Positions 57,610 through 61,874 of a stretch of DNA of 64,000 nucleotides are shown piece by piece. The stretch spans positions 124,001 through 188,000 of the forward strand of contig NZ_JAUSUH010000009.1 of the NCBI RefSeq assembly GCF_030813595.1, given 5' to 3'. Each line of letters starts with the position of its first letter. Position 1 is the stretch's first letter. Made by a program: the position numbers and the translations under genes. Under the pieces are notes generated by a model, which did not search any database, was not told where the DNA came from, and worked only from the letters and a program-made list of their open reading frames with translations. Source of the stretch: Ancylobacter vacuolatus (GTDB lineage: Bacteria > Pseudomonadota > Alphaproteobacteria > Rhizobiales > Xanthobacteraceae).

Positions 57610-57736
57610 GGCGGTCGCGGTTCCCGGCGCGGCGGAGGGCGCGGATCGCCGGAGGCGGCGATGCGTGAACGCCAACGCTTAGGCAACGGGGCGCGCGAGG
57701 GCAAGACGTCCGGCGTCCGGCACCCGCCGCCTGCGC

Positions 57737-58807
57737 TCAGCGCTCGCGCGGCGCGTCCGGCGTGATCAGCCGCTTTGCATAGACCGCCGCCATGGCCGGC
57801 ACCTGCCAGGGCGCCCGCAGGATCCGCCGCCCGCCATGGCTGAAGAAGGACTGCGCCGCCCGCACCGTGTAGTGCCAGCGCGGAGACCCTGCGAAGCGCT
57901 CCAGCCTCCGCAAATGCGTCGGCTCGGCCGGCAATGGGTTGGGTAGGCCGAAATAGGCCTCGGTGACGGTGAGCAGGCCCCGCACCGACCGTTCCCATCC
58001 GGCCTGCCTCACCCGCGCGACAAAGGCGGCAGGCACGGTGCCGGCAAAATCATCATGGACACGCTGGACGAGATCGAGGGCCTTCACCAGCGGGGTTTCG
58101 GCAATGCCCAGCCACCACCCGTCGGGGTCGGTGCATTGCGGCAGCGAGCACAGCAGCCGCGCCAGCGGGTCGAGCCGGCCGATCCGCAGCCCCTCCCAGT
58201 CCAGCCATTCCACGCCCTGCGCCGCCTCATCGTCGGACAGCAGGGTTTCATAAGGCGCCACGACGCTGTGGTGTAGCTCCACCCGCGCCATCTCGTCGGG
58301 ATGGAAGAAGGGCGGGTAATGCCTCTGGCTCTCCACCGGCCCGTCCGAGACGTAGCCGAGGCTCCGGAGCACCGCCATCGCCCCGCGCTGCGCACTCTCT
58401 TCCGGCAACCAGACGTCGAGGTCCATCATCTGGCGCCCGGCGGCCGGGCCCTGTGGCGGCAGCAGCGTGAGCGCCCCCTTGAGCCAGACCGGCTGGAGCC
58501 CTGCCGCGTTGAGCGCCGCGCTCAGCGTCCGCATCTGCCGCCGGAAGCCCTCATTGCGCTCGGTGTTCCACGCCGCCACCGCCGCGAGCAGCTCGGCCAG
58601 TTCCGGATCGACCCGGTCGACGAGCCCGTGACGGGCGAGCGCGACGGACAGAACGGGAATGAGGCGGTGCTTGTCGGCCTGGGCGAGGAGCGCCTGCCAG
58701 GGCGGCGTCTCCGGCCAGTCCGCCAGCAGCGATTCGCGGGTGGAGAAGGGCGAGACGAGGGCGCAGAGCAGGCGCAGGCCTTGAAGGGCGGAGTTACGGC
58801 TCGGCAT
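57737..58807 (-). CDS. Nucleotidyltransferase-fold family protein (NTP_transf_5 type)
   Basis: A 356-aa protein. Helical N-terminal and C-terminal parts surround the nucleotidyltransferase core LKGALTLLPPQGP (Lys110-Gly111) and RQMMDLDVWL (Asp129, Asp131), followed by VELHHSVV. The same family is found in lasso-peptide clusters beside HPr-kinase-like proteins, where a member transfers sugar to a phosphorylated peptide C-terminus. The start ATG has GAGGGG 6 nt upstream. It is divergent from the five small peptide genes and, 1.7 kb further, the PqqD/HPr-kinase-like gene, so it is probably part of the same system. Confidence 0.8.
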   Translation of the reverse strand: MPSRNSALQGLRLLCALVSPFSTRESLLADWPETPPWQALLAQADKHRLIPVLSVALARHGLVDRVDPELAELLAAVAAWNTERNEGFRRQMRTLSAALNAAGLQPVWLKGALTLLPPQGPAAGRQMMDLDVWLPEESAQRGAMAVLRSLGYVSDGPVESQRHYPPFFHPDEMARVELHHSVVAPYETLLSDDEAAQGVEWLDWEGLRIGRLDPLARLLCSLPQCTDPDGWWLGIAETPLVKALDLVQRVHDDFAGTVPAAFVARVRQAGWERSVRGLLTVTEAYFGLPNPLPAEPTHLRRLERFAGSPRWHYTVRAAQSFFSHGGRRILRAPWQVPAMAAVYAKRLITPDAPRER

Positions 58808-59090
58808 GGCGACCCCTCGACTGGCGCTGGTGGCAGGTGGCCGTCGTCGGCCTGCGACACCCCGGCCAACGCTATGGAAGCCCGCGGACCGGGCAAGCAC
58901 GCGCGCGCGGCAGGAGTACACATAAGCCATGCGCAGCAGCAGCACGTGCCACATAATACGCTGGTGCCATAGGACCTTTAGCCGTAAATTGAAACTACTC
59001 TTGATCGAAATCGCAGATGGGGAATGCCTCGGGCACGCGCGTGGCGGCCCTTTGCCTCTCCGTCCCCTTCCCCTCACCGACGAGACGACC
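58808..59090. promoter_or_regulatory. Divergent promoter region of the small-peptide system
   Basis: A 283-bp gap between the nucleotidyltransferase-like gene and the first small peptide gene. The A+T-rich part at 58,940-59,015 probably has promoters for both directions. I could not identify clear -35/-10 hexamers. No further gene is supported. Confidence 0.45.
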
Positions 59091-59240
59091 ATGCCCCCCT
59101 CCCTGCCCGAGCCGGAAAAGACGCCCGCCACGGATGAGCGTCGCCGCGACGCCTTGCGCCGCCTCGGCCGGGGCGCTGCCTATGCCCTGCCGGCGACGCT
59201 GGCGGTGATGACGATGGGCCGGGCCGTCGCCCTCAGTTGA
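59091..59240 (+). CDS. Small peptide, member 1 of five tandem paralogues
   Basis: A 49-aa protein. An acidic/Pro-rich N-terminus is followed by the shared core DERRRDALRRLGRGAAYALP, then ATLAVMTMGR and the end AVALS. The core pattern RRRxALxxLGxxAxYxxPxT is conserved in all five members. It ends in Ser, like members 2 and 5. There is no known domain. It is the first gene of the row and has a weak ribosome-binding site (GACGAGACG). A role as substrate of the downstream kinase fusion is inference. Confidence 0.75.
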   Translation: MPPSLPEPEKTPATDERRRDALRRLGRGAAYALPATLAVMTMGRAVALS

Positions 59241-59325
59241 CGCGCGGTCGGCGGAGGTGCATTTTTACCCCTCCAGTCTTGGCCGCGCGTGCATCGGCCT
59301 TGGCTCAGCGAGACGAGGGGGCGCC

Positions 59326-59502
59326 ATGGCGACTGATCGCGAATCGACGACCGAGCGGGACGCTCCCGCTACCCGCCCTGCGCTGGAAGGGGCTGAGCTG
59401 CGCCGGCGCGCGGCACTGGTCAGGCTCGGCCGGGTCGCCGCCTACAGCGTTCCCACCACGGTGGGCCTGATGATGATGTCCCGGTCCGCCCGGGCAAGCT
59501 GA
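59326..59502 (+). CDS. Small peptide, member 2 of five tandem paralogues
   Basis: A 58-aa protein with a polar N-terminal half of about 24 residues (many Thr, Glu, Asp, Pro), then LRRRAALVRLGRVAAYSVPT, TVGLMMMSR and the end SARAS. GAGGGGG stands 5 nt before the ATG at 59326, the best ribosome-binding site of the series; an earlier in-frame ATG at 59257 lacks one. It ends in Ser. Confidence 0.8.
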   Translation: MATDRESTTERDAPATRPALEGAELRRRAALVRLGRVAAYSVPTTVGLMMMSRSARAS

Positions 59503-59568
59503 CCGCCCCAGCATCGCTGACAACACAATTCTGCCCCGCTTTTCACCACCCCTTCGGAACGACCGCGC

Positions 59569-59751
59569 ATGACACACTCTGACGACAGCCACCCCGAGAC
59601 GCAGGCCCCGTCGGCAAACCCGGCGCCGCACGAGCCCGTCGACAGCCGCCGGCGCGCGGCGCTGGCGAAGCTGGGCAAGACGGCCGCCTATGCGGTACCC
59701 GCCACGGTGAGCCTGATGGCGATGAGCCGCTCGGCCCGCGCCTGCAATTGA
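59569..59751 (+). CDS. Small peptide, member 3 of five tandem paralogues
   Basis: A 60-aa protein: a polar, Pro/His/Asp-rich N-terminus, then SRRRAALAKLGKTAAYAVPA and TVSLMAMSRSARACN. It is nearly identical in the C-terminal 33 residues to member 4 but differs in the N-terminus, showing recent duplication with fast N-terminal divergence. It ends in Cys-Asn. GGAAC lies before the ATG. Confidence 0.82.
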   Translation: MTHSDDSHPETQAPSANPAPHEPVDSRRRAALAKLGKTAAYAVPATVSLMAMSRSARACN

Positions 59752-59820
59752 CCGGCGGCCCCGGGAACCCGGCGCCGCCTTCCGCCTCGCCCTCGCCCCA
59801 CCGCTTCCGGGAAACCCCGC

Positions 59821-60012
59821 ATGACCCGTTCTGACGACGTTGCCGATGATGCACCGGCCACGGCGACCCTCCCGGTCTCCGCTCCGCAGCCCGGCGAGAC
59901 GGTCGACAGCCGCCGGCGCGCGGCGCTGGCGAAGCTCGGCCGCACGGCCGTCTACGCGGTGCCCGCCACGGTGAGCCTGATGGCGATGACCCGTTCCGCC
60001 CGCGCCTGTTGA
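59821..60012 (+). CDS. Small peptide, member 4 of five tandem paralogues
   Basis: A 63-aa protein, the longest of the set. The N-terminal 30 residues are acidic and Ala/Pro-rich, followed by SRRRAALAKLGRTAVYAVPA and TVSLMAMTRSARAC. It ends in a free Cys. GGGAAA lies upstream of the ATG. It shares about 90 percent of the last 33 residues with member 3. Confidence 0.82.
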   Translation: MTRSDDVADDAPATATLPVSAPQPGETVDSRRRAALAKLGRTAVYAVPATVSLMAMTRSARAC

Positions 60013-60156
60013 TCGCTTCGCCTTCGGCGCCGGGGCGCCCAACGTCCCGGCGGCTCCCGAATTGGAAAGGGTGCTACAGTGACGCCTGCCTTAGGGGCCG
60101 CTTTACAGATGGGTGTTCCGCCTCGGGAGGCGGCGACCGATCGTTCGGAGTAACCA

Positions 60157-60315
60157 ATGTCCGCCGAAGAAGACGCCCGCCCCATCAAGACGCCCGCGCC
60201 GATAGCCGATGAACGCCGGCGCGCCGCGCTGCGCAAGCTCGGCACGGTCGCGGCCTATGGCGTGCCGGTGACGCTCAGCCTGATGTCGATCAAGCGCGCG
60301 GCGGCGGACAGCTAG
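60157..60315 (+). CDS. Small peptide, member 5 of five tandem paralogues
   Basis: A 52-aa protein: MSAEEDARPIKTPAPIADE, then RRRAALRKLGTVAAYGVPVT, LSLMSIKR and the end AAADS. CGGAG stands 7 nt before the ATG. It is the most diverged of the later members but keeps the core, and ends in Ser. It lies closest to the PqqD/HPr-kinase-like gene (203 bp). Confidence 0.78.
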   Translation: MSAEEDARPIKTPAPIADERRRAALRKLGTVAAYGVPVTLSLMSIKRAAADS

Positions 60316-60426
60316 CGGCGCGGCCCGATCTGATCTGATCGCCCTCTTCTTCTCAGACGGGCAACAGTCTCTCCAGCGCTTTATGCTGACCGGTTGATGT
60401 CCTGCCAGAGCGGAAGGCGCCGCAAG

Positions 60427-60522
60427 ATGGCTCCAGAACCCGCCGCCTTGTCAGCGGACACTTCAGTGCCACAGGCGCCGGGCGCCCGAGGCTGCAACTT
60501 GCCTGGTGACGGCTCGCCATGA
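60427..60522 (+). CDS. Possible 31-aa ORF coupled to the kinase gene
   Basis: A short frame starts with ATG at 60427, about 9 nt after GGAAGG. It encodes a Pro/Ala/Gly-rich peptide with one Cys and overlaps the kinase start (ATGA). It lacks the RRRxAL core of the five small peptides. It could be a translational-coupling leader or chance. Confidence 0.25.
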   Translation: MAPEPAALSADTSVPQAPGARGCNLPGDGSP

Positions 60523-61844
60523 CGGACATCGCTTTCCCCGAGACGACCGGCACCGACGCCGGTACCCGCAGTGCCGAGCCGCGCTTCTATTTCCGCGTGC
60601 TGGACGACGTGCTCTTTGTCTTCGACAAGGACCGCGACATGGCGCACGCGCTCAATGCCTCAGCCGCCCGGCTGTTCCTCACTTTGCCTGGCGCCTTCCT
60701 CACCCCCACCGCCCTCGGCGAGGCCTCCGGGCTCGGCGCGCAGGATCTGCGCGATTGCCTCACTGCATGGGAGGCTTTCGGCTGGATCGAGAGCGACGGC
60801 GCCGGGCAGGTGCGGTTGCGGGACGCGAGGACGCCCCGGCTGGACGAGGCGCGCGCGGCTGGCCTCGCCCCGGCCGGCGACGAGCGTCTGATTGACAGTT
60901 ACCAGGTCCGGCTGGCCGGCTCATCCGTCGCGTTCCGCTTGTTCATCGGCGGCGGAGGGCCGGACGGCCCCGGCGGGGCGGCGGCGCTGGACGACCTGTC
61001 GGTTTTCGACGACCCGTCCGATCCCGATGGCTTCGCCGCCCGGCTGGCGAGCGGGCGGCGCATGGTCGGCTTCTTCGGCGGCTTTCTCGATCCCGCCCCG
61101 GAACGTCATCCCCCTCTCGCCACCATCGACCTGGTGGTGACGCCGGACGGTTTCCTGCTGCGCGCCGGCCCGCGCCGCCTGTCCACCGAGAAGGTGGCGG
61201 TGGCGGTCGGCAAGGTGCGGCTCTGGCTGCTCGATCTCGTCTATCGCGCGCCGCACCCTTCCGTCTTCGTCCACGGCGCGGCGCTCGCCACAACGGCTGG
61301 CGCGGTGGTGATGGCCGGCGTGTCCGGCGCCGGCAAGAGCACGCTTTCCGCCTATCTGGTCACGCGCGGCTGGCGCTTCGGCACCGATGATTCCCTCGCC
61401 CTCGGCTTTCGTGACGGCGAGGCGGTGGTGCTGCCCTGCCCCGGCGCGATCAATGTCAAACCGGGGAGCACTCCCACCCTGCTGCCCTTCCACCCGCAGC
61501 TGGCGGCGCTGCCGCTGATCGGCGTCGGCGAGAAGCGCGGGCGCTATCTGCCGGTGCCGTCCGAGCAGCACATCGGACCCGGGGGGGGCGAGAACCATGT
61601 CCGCTGCTTCATTTTCCCCCGCTTCAAGGCGGGCTCGCCGACGCGGGTTTCGGCGCTCTCGCCCGCGCAGGCGCTGCTCGCACTGATGGAAGCGGAGTTC
61701 GATCTCGCCGAAGAGGCCGACGCCGCCGAATTCGACGCCTTCTTCGACACGCTGGAACGGCTGCCGCGCTACGCCATCGTCTATAGCGACCTCGTCGAGA
61801 TGGAAGCCGTGCTGCGCCGGCTGGTGGCGGGCCAGAGCGCCTGA
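60519..61844 (+). CDS. PqqD-like / HPr-kinase-like fusion protein
   Basis: A 441-aa protein. Residues about 20-100 resemble a PqqD-type peptide-binding domain (FYFRVLDDVLFVFDKDRD, ALNASAARLFLTL, then LRDCLTAWEAFGWIE). Residues about 235-430 are an HPr-kinase-like domain with VHGAAL (His252), Walker A GVSGAGKST (267-275, Lys273) and FGTDDSLAL (Asp290, Asp291). In lasso-peptide clusters such kinases phosphorylate the peptide C-terminus. Fusion to a PqqD-like domain suggests that it both binds and modifies the upstream small peptides. The start follows no strong ribosome-binding site. Confidence 0.8.
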   Translation: MTDIAFPETTGTDAGTRSAEPRFYFRVLDDVLFVFDKDRDMAHALNASAARLFLTLPGAFLTPTALGEASGLGAQDLRDCLTAWEAFGWIESDGAGQVRLRDARTPRLDEARAAGLAPAGDERLIDSYQVRLAGSSVAFRLFIGGGGPDGPGGAAALDDLSVFDDPSDPDGFAARLASGRRMVGFFGGFLDPAPERHPPLATIDLVVTPDGFLLRAGPRRLSTEKVAVAVGKVRLWLLDLVYRAPHPSVFVHGAALATTAGAVVMAGVSGAGKSTLSAYLVTRGWRFGTDDSLALGFRDGEAVVLPCPGAINVKPGSTPTLLPFHPQLAALPLIGVGEKRGRYLPVPSEQHIGPGGGENHVRCFIFPRFKAGSPTRVSALSPAQALLALMEAEFDLAEEADAAEFDAFFDTLERLPRYAIVYSDLVEMEAVLRRLVAGQSA

Positions 61845-61874
61845 GACCGGCCTGAGACCCGGCCGGCCGGCGCA

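Follow-up and report, generated by a model that had tools for sequence, protein, structure and literature searches.

We examined a 64,000-nt stretch of the Ancylobacter vacuolatus genome (assembly GCF_030813595.1, contig NZ_JAUSUH010000009.1, positions 124,001 to 188,000; hereafter the window), which carries a candidate peptide-phosphorylation module at positions 57622-61874. This unit has genes on both strands and comprises a nucleotidyltransferase (NTase), five small peptides, and a kinase of the HprK type fused to a putative RiPP recognition element (RRE; RiPP, ribosomally synthesized and post-translationally modified peptide). The NTase-fold protein (57737-58807, minus strand, 356 aa) matches PF14907 (NTP_transf_5) with E=4.6e-28, and its sequence contains a KG...DLD motif, which we take to be the catalytic motif of nucleotidyltransferases. 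Divergent from it, on the plus strand, lie open reading frames (ORFs) for p1 (59091-59240, 49 aa, C-terminus AVALS), p2 (59326-59502, 58 aa, ARAS), p3 (59569-59751, 60 aa, ARACN), p4 (59821-60012, 63 aa, ARAC), and p5 (60157-60315, 52 aa, AADS). The fused kinase (441 aa) follows 3' of the peptides at 60519-61844 on the plus strand, with its PqqD-like domain, the putative RRE, at residues 20-107 (60576-60839). The original prediction, made from the DNA letters, had described this same arrangement of five small ORFs, a PqqD/HPr-kinase-like fusion, and a divergent nucleotidyltransferase, and every one of these genes was recovered in place. A Pfam search at E<=1 found no family for ten further overlapping ORFs within the unit.

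All five peptides conform to the predicted pattern of a shared RRRxALxxLGxxAxYxxPxT core behind variable polar N-termini, and alignment with five peptides of relatives leaves RR..L..LG..A.Y..P.T as the common part. None of the Pfam and NCBIfam models describes the window peptides or eight peptides of relatives, which gave weak sub-threshold matches only. When a peptide profile built partly from the window peptides (A1) was run against the whole genome, matches at E<=1e-3 occurred only at these five places, which argues that the peptides are not chance ORFs; one weaker match elsewhere (E=0.003) contains a stop. The uncorrected ratio of non-synonymous to synonymous change (pN/pS) was calculated from ortholog pairs assigned by hand, with no partner for p3 in Ancylobacter aquaticus (genome G103) or for p1 and p3 in G827. 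It was 0.40 against G829, 0.46 against A. aquaticus, and 0.51 against G827. From the RR motif onward the corresponding values were 0.34, 0.29, and 0.39, and in the N-terminal linker 0.50, 0.65, and 0.58.

Within the genus, the peptides occur in seven of 30 genomes (5, 4, 6, 3, 5, 3, and 3 copies, 29 in all), and in each of these seven the locus also holds the full-length fused kinase together with an NTase match. Thus, the predicted multiplication of precursors extends to every carrier (3-6 copies), as does the predicted co-occurrence of the peptides with both enzymes, with one NTase reduced to a remnant. That remnant, in G022, covers residues 262-333 only (locus L063, 9375-9781), while the kinase and peptides persist; one of the three G022 peptides lacks RR and lies inside a 579-aa frame, and one has Arg at the position discussed below as the likely acceptor. 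An eighth genome, G821, carries a distant pair of kinase and NTase genes adjoining a single distant leader-like peptide (E=9e-3). A permease gene flanks the unit in all seven carriers, and the opposite flank, a short-chain dehydrogenase/PdxA-like region, is found in the window and in three of the six relatives. Because G818 has an empty site, in which both flanks (91.1% and 90.5% identical) are separated by 245 bp that include none of the module genes, ca. 230 bp standing in place of the unit, we conclude that 57622-61874 was gained or lost as one block.

The 29 genus peptides of the seven carriers, a set that excludes the single distant leader of G821, share a precisely spaced residue near their C-termini. 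In 28 of them, Ser (22) or Cys (6) stands exactly 15 residues past the proline of the YxxP motif (P+15), and the remaining one has Arg; at any other proline-anchored position, Ser or Cys occurs in at most 15 of 29. The residue at P-3 is Tyr in 25. In the window, p1, p2, and p5 have Ser at P+15, whereas in p3 and p4 Cys replaces it. P+15 is the last residue of 24 peptides, and one to three residues follow it in the other five. Related arrangements have been published for other phosphopeptides and for lasso precursors. Linear polyphosphorylated peptides (LPPs) have the consensus YxxPxVLxHQxIxFETxxS (PMC13381572), in which, by our own count on the printed motif, the proline-to-serine distance is also P+15, and LppK phosphorylation was mapped to Ser3 of this consensus (PMC13381572). 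The lasso-peptide kinase PadeK phosphorylates a C-terminal Ser (PMC9266682), and in lasso precursors from Bradymonadales a YxxPxL motif spans positions -17 to -12 (PMC10368454). Most window peptides combine the LPP spacing with a C-terminal acceptor position. Both the likely acceptor residue and the leader's match to the lasso/LPP YxxP motif had been overlooked in the original prediction.

Residues 245-435 of the fused protein match the NCBIfam family TIGR04352 (HprK_rel_A) with E=8e-23, although the score of 80.9 bits does not reach the family's cut-off of 200. The predicted structure of the whole fusion (pLDDT 81.9, pTM 0.81) has a kinase part that resembles phosphoenolpyruvate carboxykinase and HPr kinase (best E 2e-6 for the former, 2e-4 for the latter). 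Across 12 aligned sequences, including that of the window, no substitution occurs at H252, the P-loop residue K273, or D290, and D291 is nearly invariant. Since His-Lys-Asp-Asp residues are reported to be essential in lasso kinases (PMC9266682), this alignment indicates that the window kinase keeps their catalytic set.

The N-terminal domain was harder to place. Its AlphaFold2 model (pLDDT 87.5) has the b3a3 topology seen in RREs, and the top Foldseek match in the PDB is the lasso RRE TbiB1 with bound leader (TM-score 0.60, E=5e-3). Direct searches gave no such indication: Pfam and NCBIfam PqqD models do not match the domain, profiles of the domain and its close relatives match no PqqD or RRE sequence in the PDB, and hhalign to PqqD gives a probability of 6%. 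The PqqD protein of TIGR04353 does not match the domain either, and produces a 16.3-bit match at residues 379-415 instead. A wider alignment (A8) that matched TbiB1 at 2e-9 was set aside as biased, as it contains discrete PqqD rows. However, a colinear homologue from Bosea (L080), whose N-terminal domain is 35% identical to that of the window, passes Pfam PqqD with E=1.1e-8, and scores 22.7 bits against TIGR04353 (cut-off 35). Because this homologue passes the Pfam model and the predicted fold is RRE-like, the assignment of the domain as PqqD-like is well supported; the predicted PqqD-like N-terminus of the kinase thus holds through the homologue and the modelled fold, whereas the direct profile searches were negative. 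In some other kinases a PqqD-like stretch stands at the C-terminus rather than the N-terminus (L058, 10483-11688, Pfam PqqD E=1.6e-12; L047, 1796-3115, by eye).

The gene set has clear counterparts among the tailoring enzymes of paeninodin- and pseudomycoidin-type lasso peptides (PadeK, ThcoK, SyanK, and PsmN), with which it shares the His-Lys-Asp-Asp kinase and a C-terminal Ser (PMC9266682), as well as a YxxP-type leader paired with an RRE (PMC10368454, PMC13381572). In that chemistry, phospho-Ser reportedly receives its hexose from the NTase PsmN, giving the hexoses of pseudomycoidin (PMC9266682). Lasso systems, however, also have a B2 protease, a macrolactam cyclase, and a ring-forming core, all three of which are missing from the window locus. 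Six of the 31 genomes searched for PF13471, the B2 family, have it, either on a different contig or, in A. aquaticus, ca. 1 Mb away; of the seven carriers this search covered G000 (the window's own genome), G022, and G103, none of which has a match near the module, and short contigs limit such comparisons (the peptide contig of G098 is 8.6 kb). Of 35 genomes, 34 contain asparagine synthase-type genes (PF00733), which is to be expected of a family with housekeeping members, and in all seven carriers these genes lie on other contigs or at least ca. 370 kb from the module. The predicted absence of the lasso-forming B and C enzymes was thereby borne out wherever they were searched for, and, together with the scan of overlapping ORFs, these searches rule out an overlooked lasso cluster at the locus.

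Elsewhere in the window's genome, PF13471 matches at C3:197314, C7:90926, and C17:4408 (contig:position), of which the last is split over two overlapping pieces; HprK-like matches adjoin those on C7 and C17, and C17 also has a PF00733 match, so that a separate lasso-type locus probably coexists with the module. Such loci, in particular the joint occurrence of PF13471, HprK-like, and PF00733 matches on C17, would be compatible with the module being a decaying relic of a lasso cluster that lost its B and C enzymes, as would the shared tailoring enzymes and YxxP leader and the NTase decay in G022. Yet we regard this as very improbable: the peptides are multiplied and their pN/pS is below 1, neither lasso family lies near the module in the carriers searched for each, and kinase-leader loci in other families and orders likewise have no PF13471 alongside.

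LPPs, described from Bacillota in May 2026 (PMC13381572), follow a very similar logic. They have in common with the window an HprK-like kinase, an RRE, a YxxP leader, Ser at P+15, and no need for a lasso cyclase; their clusters also include an NTP transferase, to which the window PF14907 protein may correspond. There are differences as well. LPP clusters hold one to three precursors, with a conserved N-terminus and a variable C-terminal core, whereas Ancylobacter genomes encode three to six, with a variable N-terminus and almost nothing past the acceptor. The RRE is a discrete protein in LPP clusters but fused to the kinase here, Cys can replace Ser in the window peptides, and the host belongs to the Alphaproteobacteria rather than the Bacillota. 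LPP clusters also encode an SpI-type signal peptidase and an MsbA-like transporter, neither of which was recognised in unit 57622-61874 (the rest of the genome was not searched for them). Because the discrete RRE, SpI-type peptidase, transporter, and C-terminal core of LPPs were not found here, nor the lasso B2 and C enzymes, we do not class the module as either. From their sequences, the window peptides look like LPP-type precursors trimmed to a leader and an acceptor residue. Four Firmicutes-type loci scanned for LPP-type precursors contained none, and at one of them, L088, the gene next to the kinase encodes a precursor of paeninodin type with WxxP and a C-terminal Ser.

The literature searched, which left most subscription journals and supplements uncovered, describes neither a proteobacterial counterpart nor core-less precursors. 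The main text of PMC13381572 does not mention Proteobacteria, Pseudomonadota, or Alphaproteobacteria, and the word kinase is absent from the main text of the RRE surveys PMC7470986 and PMC12710340. The claim that the system is undescribed must be narrowed in view of the similar LPPs (PMC13381572) and of the existing NCBIfam entry "HPr-rel-A system PqqD family peptide chaperone".

These HPr-rel-A systems (kinase TIGR04352, PqqD chaperone TIGR04353, and PF14907) have a homologous kinase, a PqqD-type domain, and an NTase, as in the window, where by contrast the domains are fused and the kinase falls below the TIGR04352 cut-off. Ten genomes have proteins above that cut-off, and the loci of eight of them were examined. 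Among these loci, a regular-expression search found a neighbouring ORF with an RR...P...AxA leader in seven of eight, the exception being L196, and all seven leader ORFs have Ser or Thr at P+14. Five of these seven were scanned and gave no Pfam or NCBIfam family above cut-off, and no peptide model for HPr-rel-A systems turned up in the libraries searched. Frames adjacent to the TIGR04352 systems L190, L193, L194, L195, and L197 are 186-245 aa long and combine an RR...P...A[WL]A leader with Cys-containing bodies; for the four that were scanned (L190, L193, L194, and L197), neither Pfam nor NCBIfam gave a family at E<=0.1. Whereas HPr-rel-A neighbours are frames of 86-245 aa with bodies after the leader, the window peptides end near the acceptor. 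These comparisons suggest a common class of substrates for HPr-rel-A systems, with the window peptides as a version cut short at the acceptor.

The longer bodies past AxA also bear on a different explanation, in which the RR, short hydrophobic stretch, and AxA of these peptides form a signal peptide, so that the peptides would be Tat (twin-arginine translocation)- or Sec-like signals for export or else tiny exported proteins. The kinase and NTase would then modify the N-terminal end of the mature part ahead of export, a part that in the window would have shrunk to one or two residues. RR is indeed nearly invariant and AxA common, the peptide profile also matches two long frames that by eye resemble Tat substrates (L176 and L181), and peptides of relatives give weak matches to TIGR02811 and TIGR01409. 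On the other hand, a signal without cargo serves no export purpose, the window peptides match no TAT model at E<=1, and the conserved Y/FxxP and exact P+15 acceptor spacing are, to our knowledge, not Tat features. We consider the export explanation unlikely, while noting that leader and signal may be one and the same, in which case the export and RiPP readings would both hold.

Beyond the genus, the association of leader and kinase loosens. A 21-row leader profile (A5) matched 28 of 385 genomes of the class at E<=0.01. From these we examined 23 loci in 18 genomes, which leaves aside nine genomes with weak matches (E 0.0014-0.009) and the window's own; three judged to be false positives (G478, G705, and G661) were kept among the 18. 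A kinase lies within 5 kb of a leader peptide in ten of the 18. In the order, 22 genomes besides the window's own had matches, and 29 loci were examined; 14 genomes keep a match with A5, and in 11 of them a kinase lies no more than 5 kb away, a figure that is partly circular since A5 includes peptides of those loci. No kinase occurs in the examined stretch at some leader loci, for example those of G024, G549, G557, and G514, and G815 has several scattered leaders, one of them beside a kinase. The expectation that the peptides always accompany the kinase is thus borne out within the genus but not farther away, and the order and class samples both reject strict peptide-kinase adjacency everywhere.

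Leaders of the distant members are often followed by Gly/Asn-rich or Cys-containing tails. One leader type, RRxFLxxCGKFAxxTPPxVxLML (L171, L172, L173, L184, L185, and L187), precedes Gly/Asn-rich tails such as GNNGFGNGGGDGVPGNSG; a kinase stands alongside some of these and is absent from the examined stretch of others. At L060 (9617-11389) and L061 (9673-10395), seven and three leader peptides, respectively, stand in tandem and end in QVANGSGV or a similar sequence, near an HprK-like protein that by eye lacks a fused PqqD domain. PF00733 genes lie ca. 6 kb (G423:C25:88833-90008) and ca. 9.5 kb (G815:C50:23536-24537) from orphan leader peptides. A universal rule of Ser or Cys right after AxA was considered and rejected: of 67 distant leader rows, 13 lack AxA, and only 24 of the other 54 have Ser or Cys within three residues of it. 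Not counted were the genus loci, L080, which duplicates L042, and the false or partial rows L050, L067, L070, L176, L181, L198, and L199.

Taken together, we favor, with a probability of about two-thirds, the reading that the unit is an LPP-like, RRE-guided phosphorylation module of RiPP type, with a logic related to that of LPPs and of the tailoring set of paeninodin-like lasso peptides, and that it acts on leaders whose C-terminus is the acceptor residue or lies just past it. Its grounds are the gene set and its co-inheritance, the low pN/pS, the RRE-like predicted fold, the catalytic residues of the kinase, and the conserved acceptor spacing. We infer that the RRxxLxxLGxxAxYxxP part of each peptide, the leader, would be bound by the kinase's built-in RRE domain; the HprK domain would phosphorylate the Ser, perhaps also the Cys, at P+15, the last or nearly last residue; and the phosphate would in turn receive a nucleotidyl group or a sugar from the PF14907 protein, as PsmN reportedly does with hexoses in pseudomycoidin. 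The peptides and the enzymes encoded beside them suggest that a single end residue, Ser or Cys, is chemically decorated. The original proposal of a lasso tailoring set that acts, without the lasso enzymes, on bound small proteins by predicted phosphorylation and perhaps further modification is partly supported, in that the comparative evidence backs it.

Several observations weigh against the favored reading. Eight of the 18 class genomes have no adjacent kinase, and G549 has a leader and no TIGR04352 match at E<=1e-5. In G022 the NTase has decayed although the kinase and peptides, one of them RR-less, are retained. The 29 genus peptides are related and not independent, their acceptor position is occupied by Cys in six and Arg in one, and fewer than half of the distant leaders with AxA have Ser or Cys close behind it. 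The N-terminal domain goes unrecognised as PqqD by sequence profiles, and its fold match is modest, with no match at E<=1e-3 and many winged-helix proteins after TbiB1. Finally, neither a peptidase for the leader nor an exporter could be recognised among the genes of the unit.

This last point, together with the lack of a recognised immunity gene, would also fit small regulatory membrane proteins in which phosphorylation of the Ser/Cys tail works as a switch rather than as a step toward a natural product. HprK homologues classically regulate by Ser phosphorylation. Against such a switch stand the three to six copies, the patchy presence in seven of 30 genomes, and the RRE-like domain, which would be more typical of RiPP modules, and we consider it distinctly unlikely. 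Likewise unlikely is the proposal that the peptides are carriers, leader-only scaffolds that offer a single C-terminal Ser or Cys to the RRE-guided kinase and the nucleotidyltransferase, with one modified residue as the product. That product would be a phospho-, nucleotidyl-, or glycosyl-Ser/Cys, either released at AxA or kept as a decorated peptide tail, and the Ser- and Cys-ended paralogues would be kept together to make two related products.

For the favored phosphorylation module, the comparisons above yield a candidate family of substrates for the HPr-rel-A systems of NCBIfam, with their kinase, PqqD protein, and nucleotidyltransferase, and a single leader motif that links these systems to LPP and lasso chemistry. 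Because almost nothing follows the likely acceptor in the Ancylobacter peptides, the modification site is directly testable, and the peptides are compact substrates for the enzymology of peptide-guided phosphorylation.

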